Below are positions 14,914-20,631 of a stretch of 64,000 nucleotides of DNA, in pieces. The position numbers and the translations under genes were made by a program. The notes beneath the pieces are model-generated. The model made no database searches. It was not told the DNA's origin and worked only from the letters and a program-made list of their open reading frames with translations. Numbering within the stretch: the first letter of the stretch is position 1; each line of letters begins with the position of its first letter. Source of the DNA: Candidatus Gastranaerophilales bacterium (lineage in GTDB: Bacteria > Cyanobacteriota > Vampirovibrionia > Gastranaerophilales > Gastranaerophilaceae); the NCBI GenBank assembly GCA_944325025.1, contig CALUYN010000001.1, positions 103,414 through 167,413 on the forward strand, written 5' to 3'.

Positions 14914-15780
14914 TTATTCTTGCATTATTTCAGATACGTAATAACCGCCTTTTTCTTTAATTGCACAAACTTCATCCATCACAACAACATCTTTGCTCAT
15001 ACTTTCACGGTTAAGAACCATATAAAATAAATCGTATCCCCATTTATTAGGCCCTTTTGCGCCATTTGTATCTATTGCGAAATAGATATTGTGATGGCTT
15101 CTAAGATCGCTTCCACCATAATTTATAATGTAGCTGCCATCAGATAAAATATTAACTTTTCGCGCACCGTAATCCAGAAAAGAACATGAAGAATTTGTTA
15201 TACTGCCGCCTTCTGCTAAAACTTGTTCTTTTGTTTTATAACTTACCTGCCCGCATTCTTTATCGTCAGCTGCATAATTACAGGTCTTAATTACTTTCAT
15301 TTGCTTCAACAAATCGTTCCAAAATACGGCACAGTCAGTAACATGATAGCCGCCAAATCCCATATTATAACACTCATAAGAGGTTCCATTTTCAGCTATC
15401 GTCATATTTATTGCATTTTGAACAGATGCATAAGATTTTTTAAACTGGCTTACAAGCACCTTTTTTTGATATTTAGATACGATGTTAGGAATTGTCATCG
15501 CCGCAACCACACCAATTATGCCGAGGGTGATGAGGACCTCTGCAAGAGTGAACGCAGCTCGACGAATATTGTTAGAGTTGGCTACGTGCGTAGCACCCTC
15601 GCCTATGGGAGATGGGTAGTGTGAGCACTCTTTTTCCCCTCCCTTGAGGGGAGGGGAAGTAAAGGGGTGGGTGAGGTCAGAAGAACAGAAGCTCGGAGGG
15701 CAGGAAGGCAAGCTAAAGTTAGATGCAAAGATGCGAAGAGGCATAGAGGCAAAGCTATTATCAATAATAACTTTTGTCAC
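14914..15780 (-). CDS. Prepilin-like protein with repeat-derived N-terminal extension
   Basis: The pilin part begins NIRRAAFTLAEVLITLGIIG and ends with the shared motif FAIDTNGAKGPNKWGYDLFY, with several Cys in between. Unlike the gene at 1073, no ATG with a short leader precedes it. The frame runs back through repeat-like sequence to a GTG at 15780 (MTKVIIDNSFASM), giving a leader of about 85 residues rich in Pro, Ser and Cys that is not a normal prepilin leader. Further upstream, ATG codons at 15896 and 15890, right after the accC stop and with GAGG ahead, are out of frame because of a G10 tract (minus strand, 15851-15860). A tract of 8 or 11 would join them to this frame. The gene may be off, phase variable or decayed, and the start is uncertain. 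Confidence 0.7.
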   Translation of the reverse strand: MTKVIIDNSFASMPLRIFASNFSLPSCPPSFCSSDLTHPFTSPPLKGGEKECSHYPSPIGEGATHVANSNNIRRAAFTLAEVLITLGIIGVVAAMTIPNIVSKYQKKVLVSQFKKSYASVQNAINMTIAENGTSYECYNMGFGGYHVTDCAVFWNDLLKQMKVIKTCNYAADDKECGQVSYKTKEQVLAEGGSITNSSCSFLDYGARKVNILSDGSYIINYGGSDLRSHHNIYFAIDTNGAKGPNKWGYDLFYMVLNRESMSKDVVVMDEVCAIKEKGGYYVSEIMQE

Positions 15781-15837
15781 AGTTTTACCTAAATAGCTAT
15801 TGAAACTTGCCTGTCCTCCTGCCTTCCGGACCTCGGT
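15673..15837. repeat. Inverted repeat with period-8 AAG arrays inside the prepilin leader
   Basis: 15673-15712 reads as consecutive octamers (AAGAACAG, AAGCTCGG, AGGGCAGG, AAGGCAAG), and 15720-15755 as TAGATGCA, AAGATGCG, AAGAGGCA, TAGAGGCA. The opposite strand of 15797-15837 gives AGGTCCGG, AAGGCAGG, AGGACAGG. The outer arms can fold back on each other (GAGGTC...GGCAAG against CTTGCC...GACCTC). The block overlaps the N-terminal extension of the prepilin frame. Next to it, 15636-15670 is a GGGGAGGGG-type intergenic repeat. Confidence 0.6.
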
Positions 15838-15850
15838 GGAGCCTACAGCG

Positions 15851-15860
15851 CCCCCCCCCC
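15851..15860. repeat. Homopolymer tract C10 (G10 on the prepilin strand)
   Basis: Ten C in a row in an AT-rich genome, between accC and the prepilin gene. On the minus strand the G10 lies in a reading frame starting at ATG 15896/15890. Only 8 or 11 G would keep that frame open into the prepilin. Tract length in assembled data may be inexact. Confidence 0.85.
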
Positions 15861-15900
15861 GAAGGTCTTAGCATATCTTAGTTTGCACATATACATAACC

Positions 15901-17259
15901 TCAACTTTGCTTTTTGCCTGTACGTTTATAGAAATCCTCGATAAATCCGGTATTGAAATTACCGCTCATAAACACAGGATCTTCTATGATTTCCTGATGG
16001 AACGGAAGAGTTGTTTCAACACCTGTTATAACGTATTCTTTCAAAGCTCTATACATTCTGCGGCGGGCTTCATTTCTTGTTCTGCCCCAACAGATAAGCT
16101 TTCCTATCATTGAATCGTAATAAGGCGGGATTTTATAATCCTGATAAGCGTGAGAATCAACTCTGACTCCAAAACCACCCGGAGTCACGTAACCTGTAAT
16201 TGTTCCAGGATTAGGCATAAAGTCTTTTTCAGGATTTTCAGCATTTATGCGGCATTCAATTGCATGCCCGCGAAGAACAATTTCATCCTGAGTAAAATCG
16301 AGCTTTTGCCCTGACGCTATCATAATCTGCTCTCTTACAAGATCAACATTTGAAATCATCTCTGTTACGCAGTGCTCTACCTGAATTCTTGTATTCATCT
16401 CCATAAAATACCATTTTCCGTCATGGTCAAGCAAGAATTCACAAGTACCTGCGCTTTCATAATTTATTGCCTTAGCAGCGCGAACTGCAGCAGCACCCAT
16501 TTCCTTACGGGTTGCTTCATCAATAGCGGGTGATGGAGCTTCTTCAAGAAGTTTTTGATGGCGTCTTTGAATAGAACAATCTCTTTCACCGAGGTGAACT
16601 ACATTTCCATACTGGTCTGCAAGAATTTGAACTTCAATATGGCGCGGATTTTCAAGATATTTTTCAGCATAAACATCAGGATTGCCAAAAAAGCTCTGAG
16701 CCTCAGACTGACAAAGATTCATATTAGTTTCTACATCATCATCCGAGCGGCAAATTCTCATACCTTTTCCGCCGCCGCCTGCAGTTGCTTTTAAAATAAT
16801 CGGATAGCCGACTTTATGAGCAAATTCTTTAACTTCTTCAGGAGTTTTTAAAATACCGGTTCCAGGAGTTACAGGAACATTATTTTCTATCATTGTTTTA
16901 CGTGCAGTTGCTTTATCGCCCATTTTTCTCATAGCTTCTGCTGTCGGCCCGATAAATTTAATCCCGTGTTTCGCACAAATTTCAGCAAAATCAGCTCTTT
17001 CAGACATAAAACCGTATCCGGGGTGAATTGCATCAGCTCCTGAAACAATTGCAGCTGAGATAATTGCAGGGATACTTAAATAACTCTTTGCACTTGAGGC
17101 AGGCCCAATACAATAAGCCTCGGTTGCCAATCTTACATGCAAAGAATTTGCATCTGCCTGAGAATAAATTGCAACAGTCGGAATACCGATTTCTCTGCAA
17201 GCTCTTATAATTCTTACCGCAATCTCACCGCGGTTTGCTATTAATACTTTTCTAAACAT
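15901..17259 (-). CDS. accC: Acetyl-CoA carboxylase, biotin carboxylase subunit
   Basis: The 452-residue enzyme carboxylates biotin on AccB using ATP and bicarbonate, in the first committed step of fatty acid synthesis. The N-terminus [20 protein letters not shown], the ATP-grasp glycine loop [17 protein letters not shown] (about residue 160), and [18 protein letters not shown] (catalytic and metal-binding region) are complete. AAAGGG precedes the ATG. It is the last gene of an efp-accB-accC run. Immediately after its stop codon the sequence GAGGTT-ATG could start translation of the prepilin leader described at 14914-15780. Confidence 0.98.
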
Positions 17260-18708: not shown

Positions 18709-18737
18709 TTGACAAATAACAAAAAATCGTAAATAAT
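18709..18737 (+). promoter_or_regulatory. Strong promoter for the 18.8-kb prepilin locus
   Basis: TTGACA (18709-18714), a 17-bp spacer and AATAAT (18732-18737). The predicted start near 18744 is followed by AAGAGG (18755-18760) and an ATG at 18769, so transcription and translation signals are aligned with that ATG. Confidence 0.7.
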
Positions 18738-18783
18738 AAATTTAATTAAGGAACAAGAGGTACTGAAAATGAATCGAGAAGCA

Positions 18784-18913
18784 GCTTTTAGAGTTGCCCC
18801 CCCCCGCAAAACGTGGCAGTATAAGCGTTTCTAACAAATGGCTTTACGTTAAAAAAAACATATGTCATAGTAGTGATATTATACATTACAATATTTTCCA
18901 ATATACCAAACGA
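18784..18913 (+). other. 130-bp insertion splitting a prepilin start, flanked by an imperfect direct repeat
   Basis: GCTTTTAGAGTTGCC begins at 18784 and GCTTTTACTCTTGCC at 18914, so the two copies are exactly 130 bp apart and identical except for three bases. The first copy sits in ATG-AAT-CGA-GAA-GCA-GCT-TTT from 18769. The second is the real FTLAEV start of the pilin. Deleting one repeat unit gives MNREAAFTLAEVLITLG in frame, a canonical prepilin start behind a good Shine-Dalgarno. The segment carries a C9 tract and no gene. Confidence 0.7.
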
Positions 18914-19588
18914 GCTTTTACTCTTGCCGAGGTATTAATAACACTCGGGATAATAGGAGTTGTTGCGCCAATTACAATGCCCGTGCTTATCACTAAATAT
19001 CAAAAAGACGTCACGGTAAACAAACTTAAAAAGAGTTATACAACTATATCCCAAATGTTTCAAATGGCGCAAAATGAAAATGGTGATCCATCAGGTTGGA
19101 ATTTTGATTTTACAGGTTCAGATGATACAAACGCATCATTAAGCGATTTTATTAACACATATATGATACCTTATTTGAAAGTTGCTGATAACTGCGGCAC
19201 ACAATGCAAAAGAATTCCAGAAATGTATAGTTTTTTAAATAATAATCCTTTTAATACAACCCAGCACTACATAATATTTTTACAAGATGGAACTACTCTG
19301 ATTTTATCTATTGATAGCAACAAGCATGCAGTTATTATACACGTTGATATAAATGGCAATAAAAATCCAAATAAAGTTGGCAGAGATGTTTTTACATATT
19401 ATCTCAATACTTCTAAAACAATTACAAAACAAAATTTTTGGGGATTAGACGGCAATTTTTCTAATGTTTCACGTGATTTCTTGTTAAATGACGGCAACAG
19501 GGGCTGTAAGAAAAATTCTCTCGGCTACTATTGCGGTGCATTGATTCAATATGACGGCTGGAAAATTAAAGATGATTATCCCTGGTAA
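18794..19588 (+). CDS. Prepilin-like protein with interrupted 5' end (possibly switched off)
   Basis: The pilin proper runs from RAFTLAEVLITLGIIGVVAP to the stop, with the shared motif HVDINGNKNPNKVGRDVFTYYL near residue 200 and Cys residues in the second half. The frame can only be opened at a TTG (18794) that has no Shine-Dalgarno and leads straight into the C9 tract. This would give an unusual leader of about 35 residues. The well-marked ATG at 18769 is one base out of frame and stops at 18834. C8 or C11, or loss of the 130-bp segment, would join them. I therefore read this as a phase-variable or recently interrupted gene rather than a gene with a TTG start. The body of the pilin is undamaged. 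Confidence 0.75.
   Translation: MPPPAKRGSISVSNKWLYVKKNICHSSDIIHYNIFQYTKRAFTLAEVLITLGIIGVVAPITMPVLITKYQKDVTVNKLKKSYTTISQMFQMAQNENGDPSGWNFDFTGSDDTNASLSDFINTYMIPYLKVADNCGTQCKRIPEMYSFLNNNPFNTTQHYIIFLQDGTTLILSIDSNKHAVIIHVDINGNKNPNKVGRDVFTYYLNTSKTITKQNFWGLDGNFSNVSRDFLLNDGNRGCKKNSLGYYCGALIQYDGWKIKDDYPW
18797..18805. repeat. Homopolymer tract C9
   Basis: Nine C between the ATG at 18769 and the prepilin body. The reading frame from the ATG enters the prepilin only if the tract is 8 or 11 long. Confidence 0.85.
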
Positions 19589-19629
19589 GAATTTGCGATA
19601 TCACTTTGTTTATGCTATTATAACCCTGT

Positions 19630-20631
19630 ATGGAAAAGGGACAAATTTATAAAATTCACTCTGATTTCTACTATGTTGATGATGGACAAAATACTCATGA
19701 ATGCAAAATTCGTGAAATTCTAAAAAAACAGAAAGAAAAAATTCTTGTCGGGGATTTTGTCGAATTTGAAAACGGTGTTATTAAAAATATTATTCAGAGG
19801 AAAAATTTTATTAAACGCCCGAGTGTTGCAAACATTGACCAAATCATAATAGTTTCAGCGCTTAAAGAACCCGATTTGGAACTTCACCAGTTAAACCGCT
19901 ATATTGCACTTGCAAAATACTATAAGGTACCTGCTGTCCTTTGTTTTAACAAGGAAGACTTAAAATGGGACAAACATCTTAAAGAAAAAATAAAAAAAAT
20001 TTATGAGCCGTTACACTACAAAATTGTTTACACTTCCGCAACAGAGCATAAAGGAATTAAAAATTTTGAAAAACTTCTTGAAGGAAAAACAAGTGTTCTG
20101 TGCGGGAATTCAGGTGTCGGCAAATCAAGCCTTATTAACGCAATAAATCCCGAATTAAACCTCAGAACAAAACAAGTCAGCGAAAAAACTCAGCGCGGCA
20201 CACACACAACCAGACACTGCGAAATTATAAAAATTAACGACACATCAAGAATTGTCGACACTCCAGGCTTCAGCAACGTAAAATTTGATTTTATACTTCC
20301 TGCTGATGTGGATTTATTATTTGATGAAATAGCACAATTTCGCAGCGGATGCAAATACGCAGACTGCCTGCATATAAGAGAAGACGGGTGTAATGTGCTT
20401 GAAAATATTGATAAAATTGATGAAACACGATATGAAAGCTATCTTGAATTTGTAAAGGAAGCTGAAATATACAAAGAAAAAGTTAAATATGAAGGAAGAA
20501 AAGAAGAAAATTCAAAAAAACTTGTTCATAACAAACATATTGCCAAAATAAGCGAAAAGAAACGTCAGAGCGCAAGAAACACTCTTAAGCAAAGAATTTA
20601 TAAGGACATAGAAAATAATGAAGATGAATGA
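19630..20631 (+). CDS. rsgA: Ribosome small subunit-dependent GTPase A
   Basis: The 333-residue circularly permuted GTPase acts in late 30S subunit maturation. It has the N-terminal OB fold (about 1-70), then G4 FNKED, and then G1 CGNSGVGKSSLINA and G3 DTPGF, the permuted order that defines the family. The zinc-binding part has Cys in FRSGCKYADCLHIREDGCNV. The lysine-rich tail (SEKKRQSARNTLKQR) is typical. The next gene starts 14 bases before its stop. Confidence 0.96.
   Translation: MEKGQIYKIHSDFYYVDDGQNTHECKIREILKKQKEKILVGDFVEFENGVIKNIIQRKNFIKRPSVANIDQIIIVSALKEPDLELHQLNRYIALAKYYKVPAVLCFNKEDLKWDKHLKEKIKKIYEPLHYKIVYTSATEHKGIKNFEKLLEGKTSVLCGNSGVGKSSLINAINPELNLRTKQVSEKTQRGTHTTRHCEIIKINDTSRIVDTPGFSNVKFDFILPADVDLLFDEIAQFRSGCKYADCLHIREDGCNVLENIDKIDETRYESYLEFVKEAEIYKEKVKYEGRKEENSKKLVHNKHIAKISEKKRQSARNTLKQRIYKDIENNEDE

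Follow-up and report, generated by a model that had tools for sequence, protein, structure and literature searches.

Structure of the prepilin locus

The DNA analysed here, hereafter the window, is a stretch of 64,000 nucleotides from a Candidatus Gastranaerophilales bacterium. It contains a gene for a type IV prepilin-like protein whose apparent start codon lies upstream in another reading frame, which raises the question of how this pilin can be translated and whether the interruption of the frame is part of a switch. The locus occupies positions 18709-19588 on the plus strand and has the following features.

18709..18737, plus strand: promoter-like TTGACA-17-AATAAT (TTGACA at 18709-18714, 17-nt spacer, AATAAT at 18732-18737)
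18755..18760, plus strand: Shine-Dalgarno-like AAGAGG, by sequence reading
18769..18796, plus strand: start codon (ATG 18769) and 5' cassette MNREAAFRV, 28 nt before the tract, with similar cassettes elsewhere
18797..18805, plus strand: C9 tract, candidate switch; with 8 or 11 C, ATG 18769 shares the frame of the pilin, and 9 C is OFF
18832..18834, plus strand: TAA at which the frame opened by ATG 18769 currently ends, by sequence reading
18806..18916, plus strand: leader, read in the frame of the pilin; its length is 111 nt in each of the three genomes with the locus
18917..19588 (including stop), plus strand: mature prepilin-like protein FTLAEVLITLG..., with matches to TIGR02532 and DUF6613

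The promoter, AAGAGG and ATG 18769 are present as an earlier sequence-only reading of this DNA had described them, and its statement that the present state is frameshifted is correct, because ATG 18769 and the FTLAEV at 18917 are in different frames. Between the C9 tract and FTLAEV, the leader of this locus contains no in-frame ATG, GTG, TTG or CTG. The TTG at 18794, which is in the pilin frame just 5' of the tract, was considered as a start codon and rejected, because relatives carry TTA and CCA at this position. In a profile search, the prepilin motif of the pilin scored 20.1 bits against TIGR02532 (cut-off, 16.3) and 20.5 bits against PF07963 (N_methyl), slightly below the cut-off of 21.2, and the match to DUF6613 exceeds its cut-off.

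The C9 tract lies inside the 130-bp segment on which the earlier reading had focused, and was overlooked there. Only two G/C runs of at least 7 nt exist in the window (C9 at 18797-18805 and G10 at 15851-15860), and both are located in prepilin leaders. Three C9 words are observed in the window versus 0.04 expected, and 1 of 100 shuffles reached three. The homopolymer tract therefore exceeds the length expected by chance, a property by which contingency loci are recognized, and it also has the position typical of such loci, between the start signals and the remaining coding frame, where a change of one C in either direction shifts the frame.

Tract-length differences between related genomes

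Two relatives, G009 and G012, both of which are metagenome-assembled genomes (MAGs), hold this locus. They keep its promoter, cassette, segment and length after the tract, and the promoter string is thus kept in all three genomes carrying the locus. The number of C is 9 in the window (OFF), 11 in G009 (in frame, ON) and 10 in G012 (OFF). The sequence-only reading had regarded a segment and a tract length common to all relatives as evidence against a switch; the segment is indeed the same, but the tract length is different in each genome. Among near-identical loci of different genomes, tract length differs in four of five orthologous groups, and the fifth group differs by one base at the tract edge. 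These changes are seen between species only, and we infer from them that tract length may also switch within a population.

The second tract-bearing prepilin of the window is encoded on the minus strand.

15888..15890, minus strand: start codon (MCKLRYAKTF), by sequence reading
15851..15860, minus strand: G10 tract (C10 on the plus strand), OFF as assembled
14914..15850, minus strand: long leader and prepilin AAFTLAEVLITLG..., with the motif from 15558 and the stop at 14914

Its counterpart in G009 shows 97.3% identity over 585 nt of the mature part; in the aligned start and leader, the sole internal indel between the two is one base at the G-tract edge, and this base shifts the frame. The window's third prepilin lacks a G/C run of at least 7 nt, and its leader is short.

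A 729-nt stretch of the window (18969-19697) is identical to G009, whereas other 200-nt bins of the aligned region mostly show 73-93% identity, so that the window pilin gene looks recently exchanged. Another 572 nt identical to G009 (15914-16485) lie within a carboxylase-like gene adjoining the second prepilin and end with the compared locus. Judged from the alignments, the identical stretches of 572 and 729 nt may be signs of recent exchange at pilin loci.

A common cassette for tract-bearing prepilins

Tracts and prepilins were counted in three genomes, G000, G009 and G012, the last being represented by the best-scoring 40 of its 120 prepilin matches. G000 contains 168 C8 words and 58 C10 words; its tract list, compiled from the C8 words of contigs C1-C10 and the C10 words of all contigs, is short by about three words' worth of short tracts. 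Of 55 listed tracts, 32 lie 20-836 nt upstream of a prepilin match on the sense side (the only side searched), and 32 of the 47 prepilin matches carry an upstream tract. Four more tracts (G10/G11) are found in large prepilin-like genes (L095, L098, L099 and L101), and nine in other ORFs at L071, L075, L100, L104, L105 (two ORFs), L108, L109 and L111, which include family-2 glycosyltransferases, AAA proteins and a DUF1796 protein. The context of ten tracts is unclear, although three of them (L061, L092 and L103) have the same start cassette. In L095, the one of the four large genes that was tested, an N_methyl/prepilin signal is accompanied by repeats of the YadA head and by a chaperone domain of the Peptidase_S74 family.

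The prepilin cassette is uniform and consists of a Shine-Dalgarno-like string, an ATG, mostly ∼30 nt (∼10 codons), CTTC-G10 or TTG-C10, the leader and FTLAEV. The Shine-Dalgarno-like string precedes the start in 30 of 30 genes in G000, 25 of 30 in G009 and 31 of 35 in G012 (sampled from the best 40 of 120 matches). Tract-bearing leaders extend for about 6 to 278 codons after the tract and do not show the short hydrophilic form of a type IV prepilin leader; the leaders of tract-less paralogues are mostly short. Of 102 leaders examined across the three genomes, the pilin frame is open in 95, versus 7.5 expected, and the other two frames in 0 and 7. The seven tracts without an open leader were left out of the phase count described below; at least three of them (C1:77560 and C11:23902 in G009, C23:20561 in G012) look by position like the tract of a neighbouring gene.

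Leader modules are shared, and where they recur at another distance, the frame is kept in 1189 of 1315 same-strand matches, which are not independent of one another. Because the leaders are open in the pilin frame and their modules keep that frame, the leaders are constrained as coding sequence. The leaders of L063-L110 and of the second window prepilin (15559-15850, minus strand) are built as mosaics from modules that recur, among them SPLPSPIGEGATHVA, VILNLFQNL and SSRFTLHSSLKKRAAFTLAEV, in the pilin frame, and 194 of 1994 module matches are in opposite orientation. In other genomes of the genus, the leaders of L012, L018 and L026 contain a partial second FTLAE ahead of the real one, an arrangement suggestive of tandem duplication of pilin starts.

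The tract-bearing pilins of G000 have a median identity of 0.88 in their first 25 residues and of 0.30 beyond residue 40, and their heads either match DUF6613 or have no match. The genome has one match to the prepilin peptidase family. In-frame Shine-Dalgarno-like starts between tract and pilin were found in 7 of 30 leaders in G000, 2 of 30 in G009 and 20 of 35 in G012; downstream initiation is therefore possible for those leaders, but not for the window locus.

Reading frame and tract length

In the 95 genes with open leaders, the start codon is in frame with the pilin at a tract length of 8 or 11 in 78 genes, of 10 in 12 genes and of 9 or 12 in 5 genes. One sequence cluster comprises 60 of the 95 genes; when counted by cluster, ON falls at 8 or 11 in 15 of 18 (p = 1.9e-5), the unclustered value of 1.8e-22 being one that ignores shared ancestry. 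The actual tract length, on the other hand, is 10 in 85 of the 102 tracts. As assembled, 78 of the 95 genes are OFF (66 need one extra base and 12 need the opposite shift) and 17 are already in frame, namely 6 of 30 in G000, 11 of 30 in G009 and 0 of 35 in G012 (best 40 of 120 matches).

The tracts in the nine other ORFs of G000 behave differently: all nine are read through in frame, compared with 6 of 30 prepilins (Fisher p = 2.4e-5). This is a count by hand, in which 'in frame' means, for L100 and the two L105 ORFs, that an ORF or domain runs through the tract. Tract length is 10 in eight of the nine and 12 in L108. Since these ORFs are read through, a length of 10 is common regardless of the gene, and it is the prepilin frame that is set against it. 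From these frames, we read the prepilins as probably OFF by default, with ON one step away. Within genomes, close pairs are 10/10 in 23 of 23 cases (two of which look like one tract listed twice), which is more uniform than free drift suggests.

Alternative explanations

The main rival of a slippage switch is that the tracts are recoding sites, where, on G10/C10, slippage by RNA polymerase or a -1 shift of the ribosome would produce a constant small fraction of full-length prepilin. A long homopolymer run is slippery for polymerase and ribosome, and both the one state shared by the 66 genes that need an extra base and the exact length of 10 in 85 tracts are as this explanation would have it. 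However, it does not account for the 17 genes already in frame or for the 12 that need the opposite shift; the tracts of length 10 in other ORFs need no recoding; and lengths differ between near-identical loci. Furthermore, although the slippery run is present, the 95 leaders show no stimulatory RNA structure of the kind associated with ribosomal frameshifting: 0 of 95 have z < -2 after the tract (mean, -0.16), as against 7% at a distance of 200 nt further on. Polymerase slippage needs no RNA structure. On balance, we consider recoding unlikely.

Miscalled tract lengths or dead gene copies would also yield genes that read OFF, as most sampled prepilins do. The genomes are drafts, the relatives being MAGs, homopolymers are error-prone, and 7 of 102 leaders are not open. 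Nevertheless, pilin frames and leaders are intact and diverse, the same pattern occurs in three genomes, and the mature part of the window pilin is identical in DNA sequence to that of G009 over 612 nt. In addition, the tracts of the nine other ORFs are in frame, which makes assembly error unlikely as a general cause. Error or gene decay is thus a very improbable explanation.

The mechanism proposed by the sequence-only reading, in which the two 16-nt repeats recombine, 130 bp are lost and the start is fused to FTLAEV, is almost certainly wrong. Deleting one repeat unit would indeed restore the frame, and the repeats AGCTTTTAGAGTTGCC (18783-18798) and AGCTTTTACTCTTGCC (18913-18928) do lie 130 bp apart, but they are identical at only 13 of 16 positions (81%). 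When these 227 bp were resampled 300 times, 84 copies contained a best 16-mer pair with at least 13 matches, and among 299 real segments of the window 78 did so; by both comparisons, the flanking repeats are therefore at chance level. The supposedly excisable segment is kept in both relatives holding the locus (G009 and G012), with the same length after the tract and a different number of C, and neither assembly shows an allele without it. In the other tract-bearing prepilins, the common element is the tract and not this repeat. MNREAAFRV is also similar to the cassettes at the 5' end of other prepilins with C tracts (MNREDAFRI, MLNREALK, MDREELRI and MRIREAFRV), so there is no need to regard it as a duplicate of the pilin N-terminus. 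What stands of the proposal is an on/off switch at the prepilin start, not a repeat-flanked segment as its mechanism.

Proposed mechanism

The best explanation, to which we assign a probability of about 0.8, is that the window locus is a translational phase-variation (contingency) locus and is one of a large set of prepilins that gut Gastranaerophilales switch by slippage. Slippage of G/C tracts during replication is an established switch. Translation would begin at ATG 18769, proceed through nine codons into the C tract and reach the prepilin signal only at 8 or 11 C; at 9 C, ribosomes would halt at the TAA at 18832, and no pilin would be made from ATG 18769. Slippage in DNA replication would alter the number of C, and the cells of one population would then differ. 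Prepilin peptidase should cut off the tract-bearing leader; as the tract lies within this removable part, switching would leave the mature protein unchanged. A match to the mismatch-repair protein MutS is present, and high switching through loss of that gene is therefore not indicated.

The repertoire would comprise tens of prepilins that share an almost constant export signal and differ in their heads, most being OFF at length 10 and ON at 11. Such a set probably lets cells vary their surface, and its use may be to vary the pilus surface towards the host, phage or other cells. A more far-reaching version, which we offer tentatively and at slightly less than even odds, is that each genome of ∼1.8 Mb in a family of gut bacteria holds from tens to possibly over 100 prepilin switches that are independent and OFF by default, with the ON frame held by selection at 8/11 while the tracts rest at 10. 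Each cell would then display a small random subset of pilins, and the disposable leader would combine the switch with tolerance for inserted modules.

Distribution in the family and phylum

Homologues of the window pilin are present in all 34 genomes of the genus. C10 words occur in 117 of 146 genomes of the family and in 218 of 292 genomes sampled across the phylum, many of the latter having very few. In 60 family genomes, the number of prepilin matches correlates with that of C10 words (rho = 0.67, p = 5e-9; some prepilin counts are given as at least 120): the median number of C10 words is 94.5 in the 24 genomes with at least 30 prepilins and 5.0 in the 36 with fewer. Among 30 loci listed by this prepilin search, 17 had a G/C run of at least 7 nt within 1.1 kb upstream, in 15 of the 17 in the open frame. 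The tract-prepilin design is also found in other genera of the family.

Three genomes, G039, G044 and G059, break the correlation, having 114, 81 and at least 120 prepilin matches but 2, 2 and 16 C10 words, respectively. A large prepilin repertoire can therefore exist without the homopolymer switch, or with a different kind.

Significance and comparison with known systems

Most known slippage switches come from pathogens, and most belong to mixed gene sets; here, a single switch cassette would serve the entire set of prepilins of a gut lineage related to Cyanobacteria. We found no report of such a switched prepilin system in the open-licence PMC literature, including that on phase variation in Gastranaerophilales and on homopolymeric tracts in metagenome-assembled genomes, which is no proof of its absence from print; a study of flagellin diversity reportedly belongs to the literature on Melainabacteria and phase variation. 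If the proposed switch is real, gene callers would misannotate many of these genes, which are in the OFF state or are given wrong starts, and the pilus make-up of gut populations could be traced from tract lengths in metagenome reads. It would also become testable whether a population keeps most of its pilins off and whether the removal of leaders leaves them free to acquire DNA modules.

The proteins resemble type IV prepilins and pseudopilins (PF07963, TIGR02532) in their N-terminal motif FTLAEVLITLG with the conserved E5. They differ from typical type IV prepilins in their very long, module-built leaders with a homopolymer switch; for a prepilin, a leader that is tens to hundreds of codons long is unusual. 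Type IV pilus genes have been reported from termite-gut Gastranaerophilales (PMC5877343).

In being scattered paralogues for surface proteins, each with a repeat switch of its own, these prepilins resemble the opa genes of Neisseria and the slippage-switched gene sets of Neisseria, Campylobacter and Helicobacter. The opa repeat lies in the signal-peptide region, and its units are pentamers. Unlike opa, the present system has G/C tracts and a larger set of genes, of prepilins, in a gut lineage related to Cyanobacteria; the gonococcus has about 11 opa genes (PMC3745409).

A close parallel in a gut commensal is the sortase-dependent pilus of Bifidobacterium breve UCC2003, for which a published study (PMC9187656) describes a G-tract switch and populations that mix tract lengths, with G10, G11 and G12 at one locus. 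There too, the start and translation signals belong to a short upstream ORF with a G10/G11 tract, and the pilin is out of frame. The two systems differ in that B. breve UCC2003 has two such loci, which encode sortase pili with a Sec signal, whereas the genomes analysed here each have tens of type IV prepilin-like genes, with the tract in the leader before the prepilin signal.
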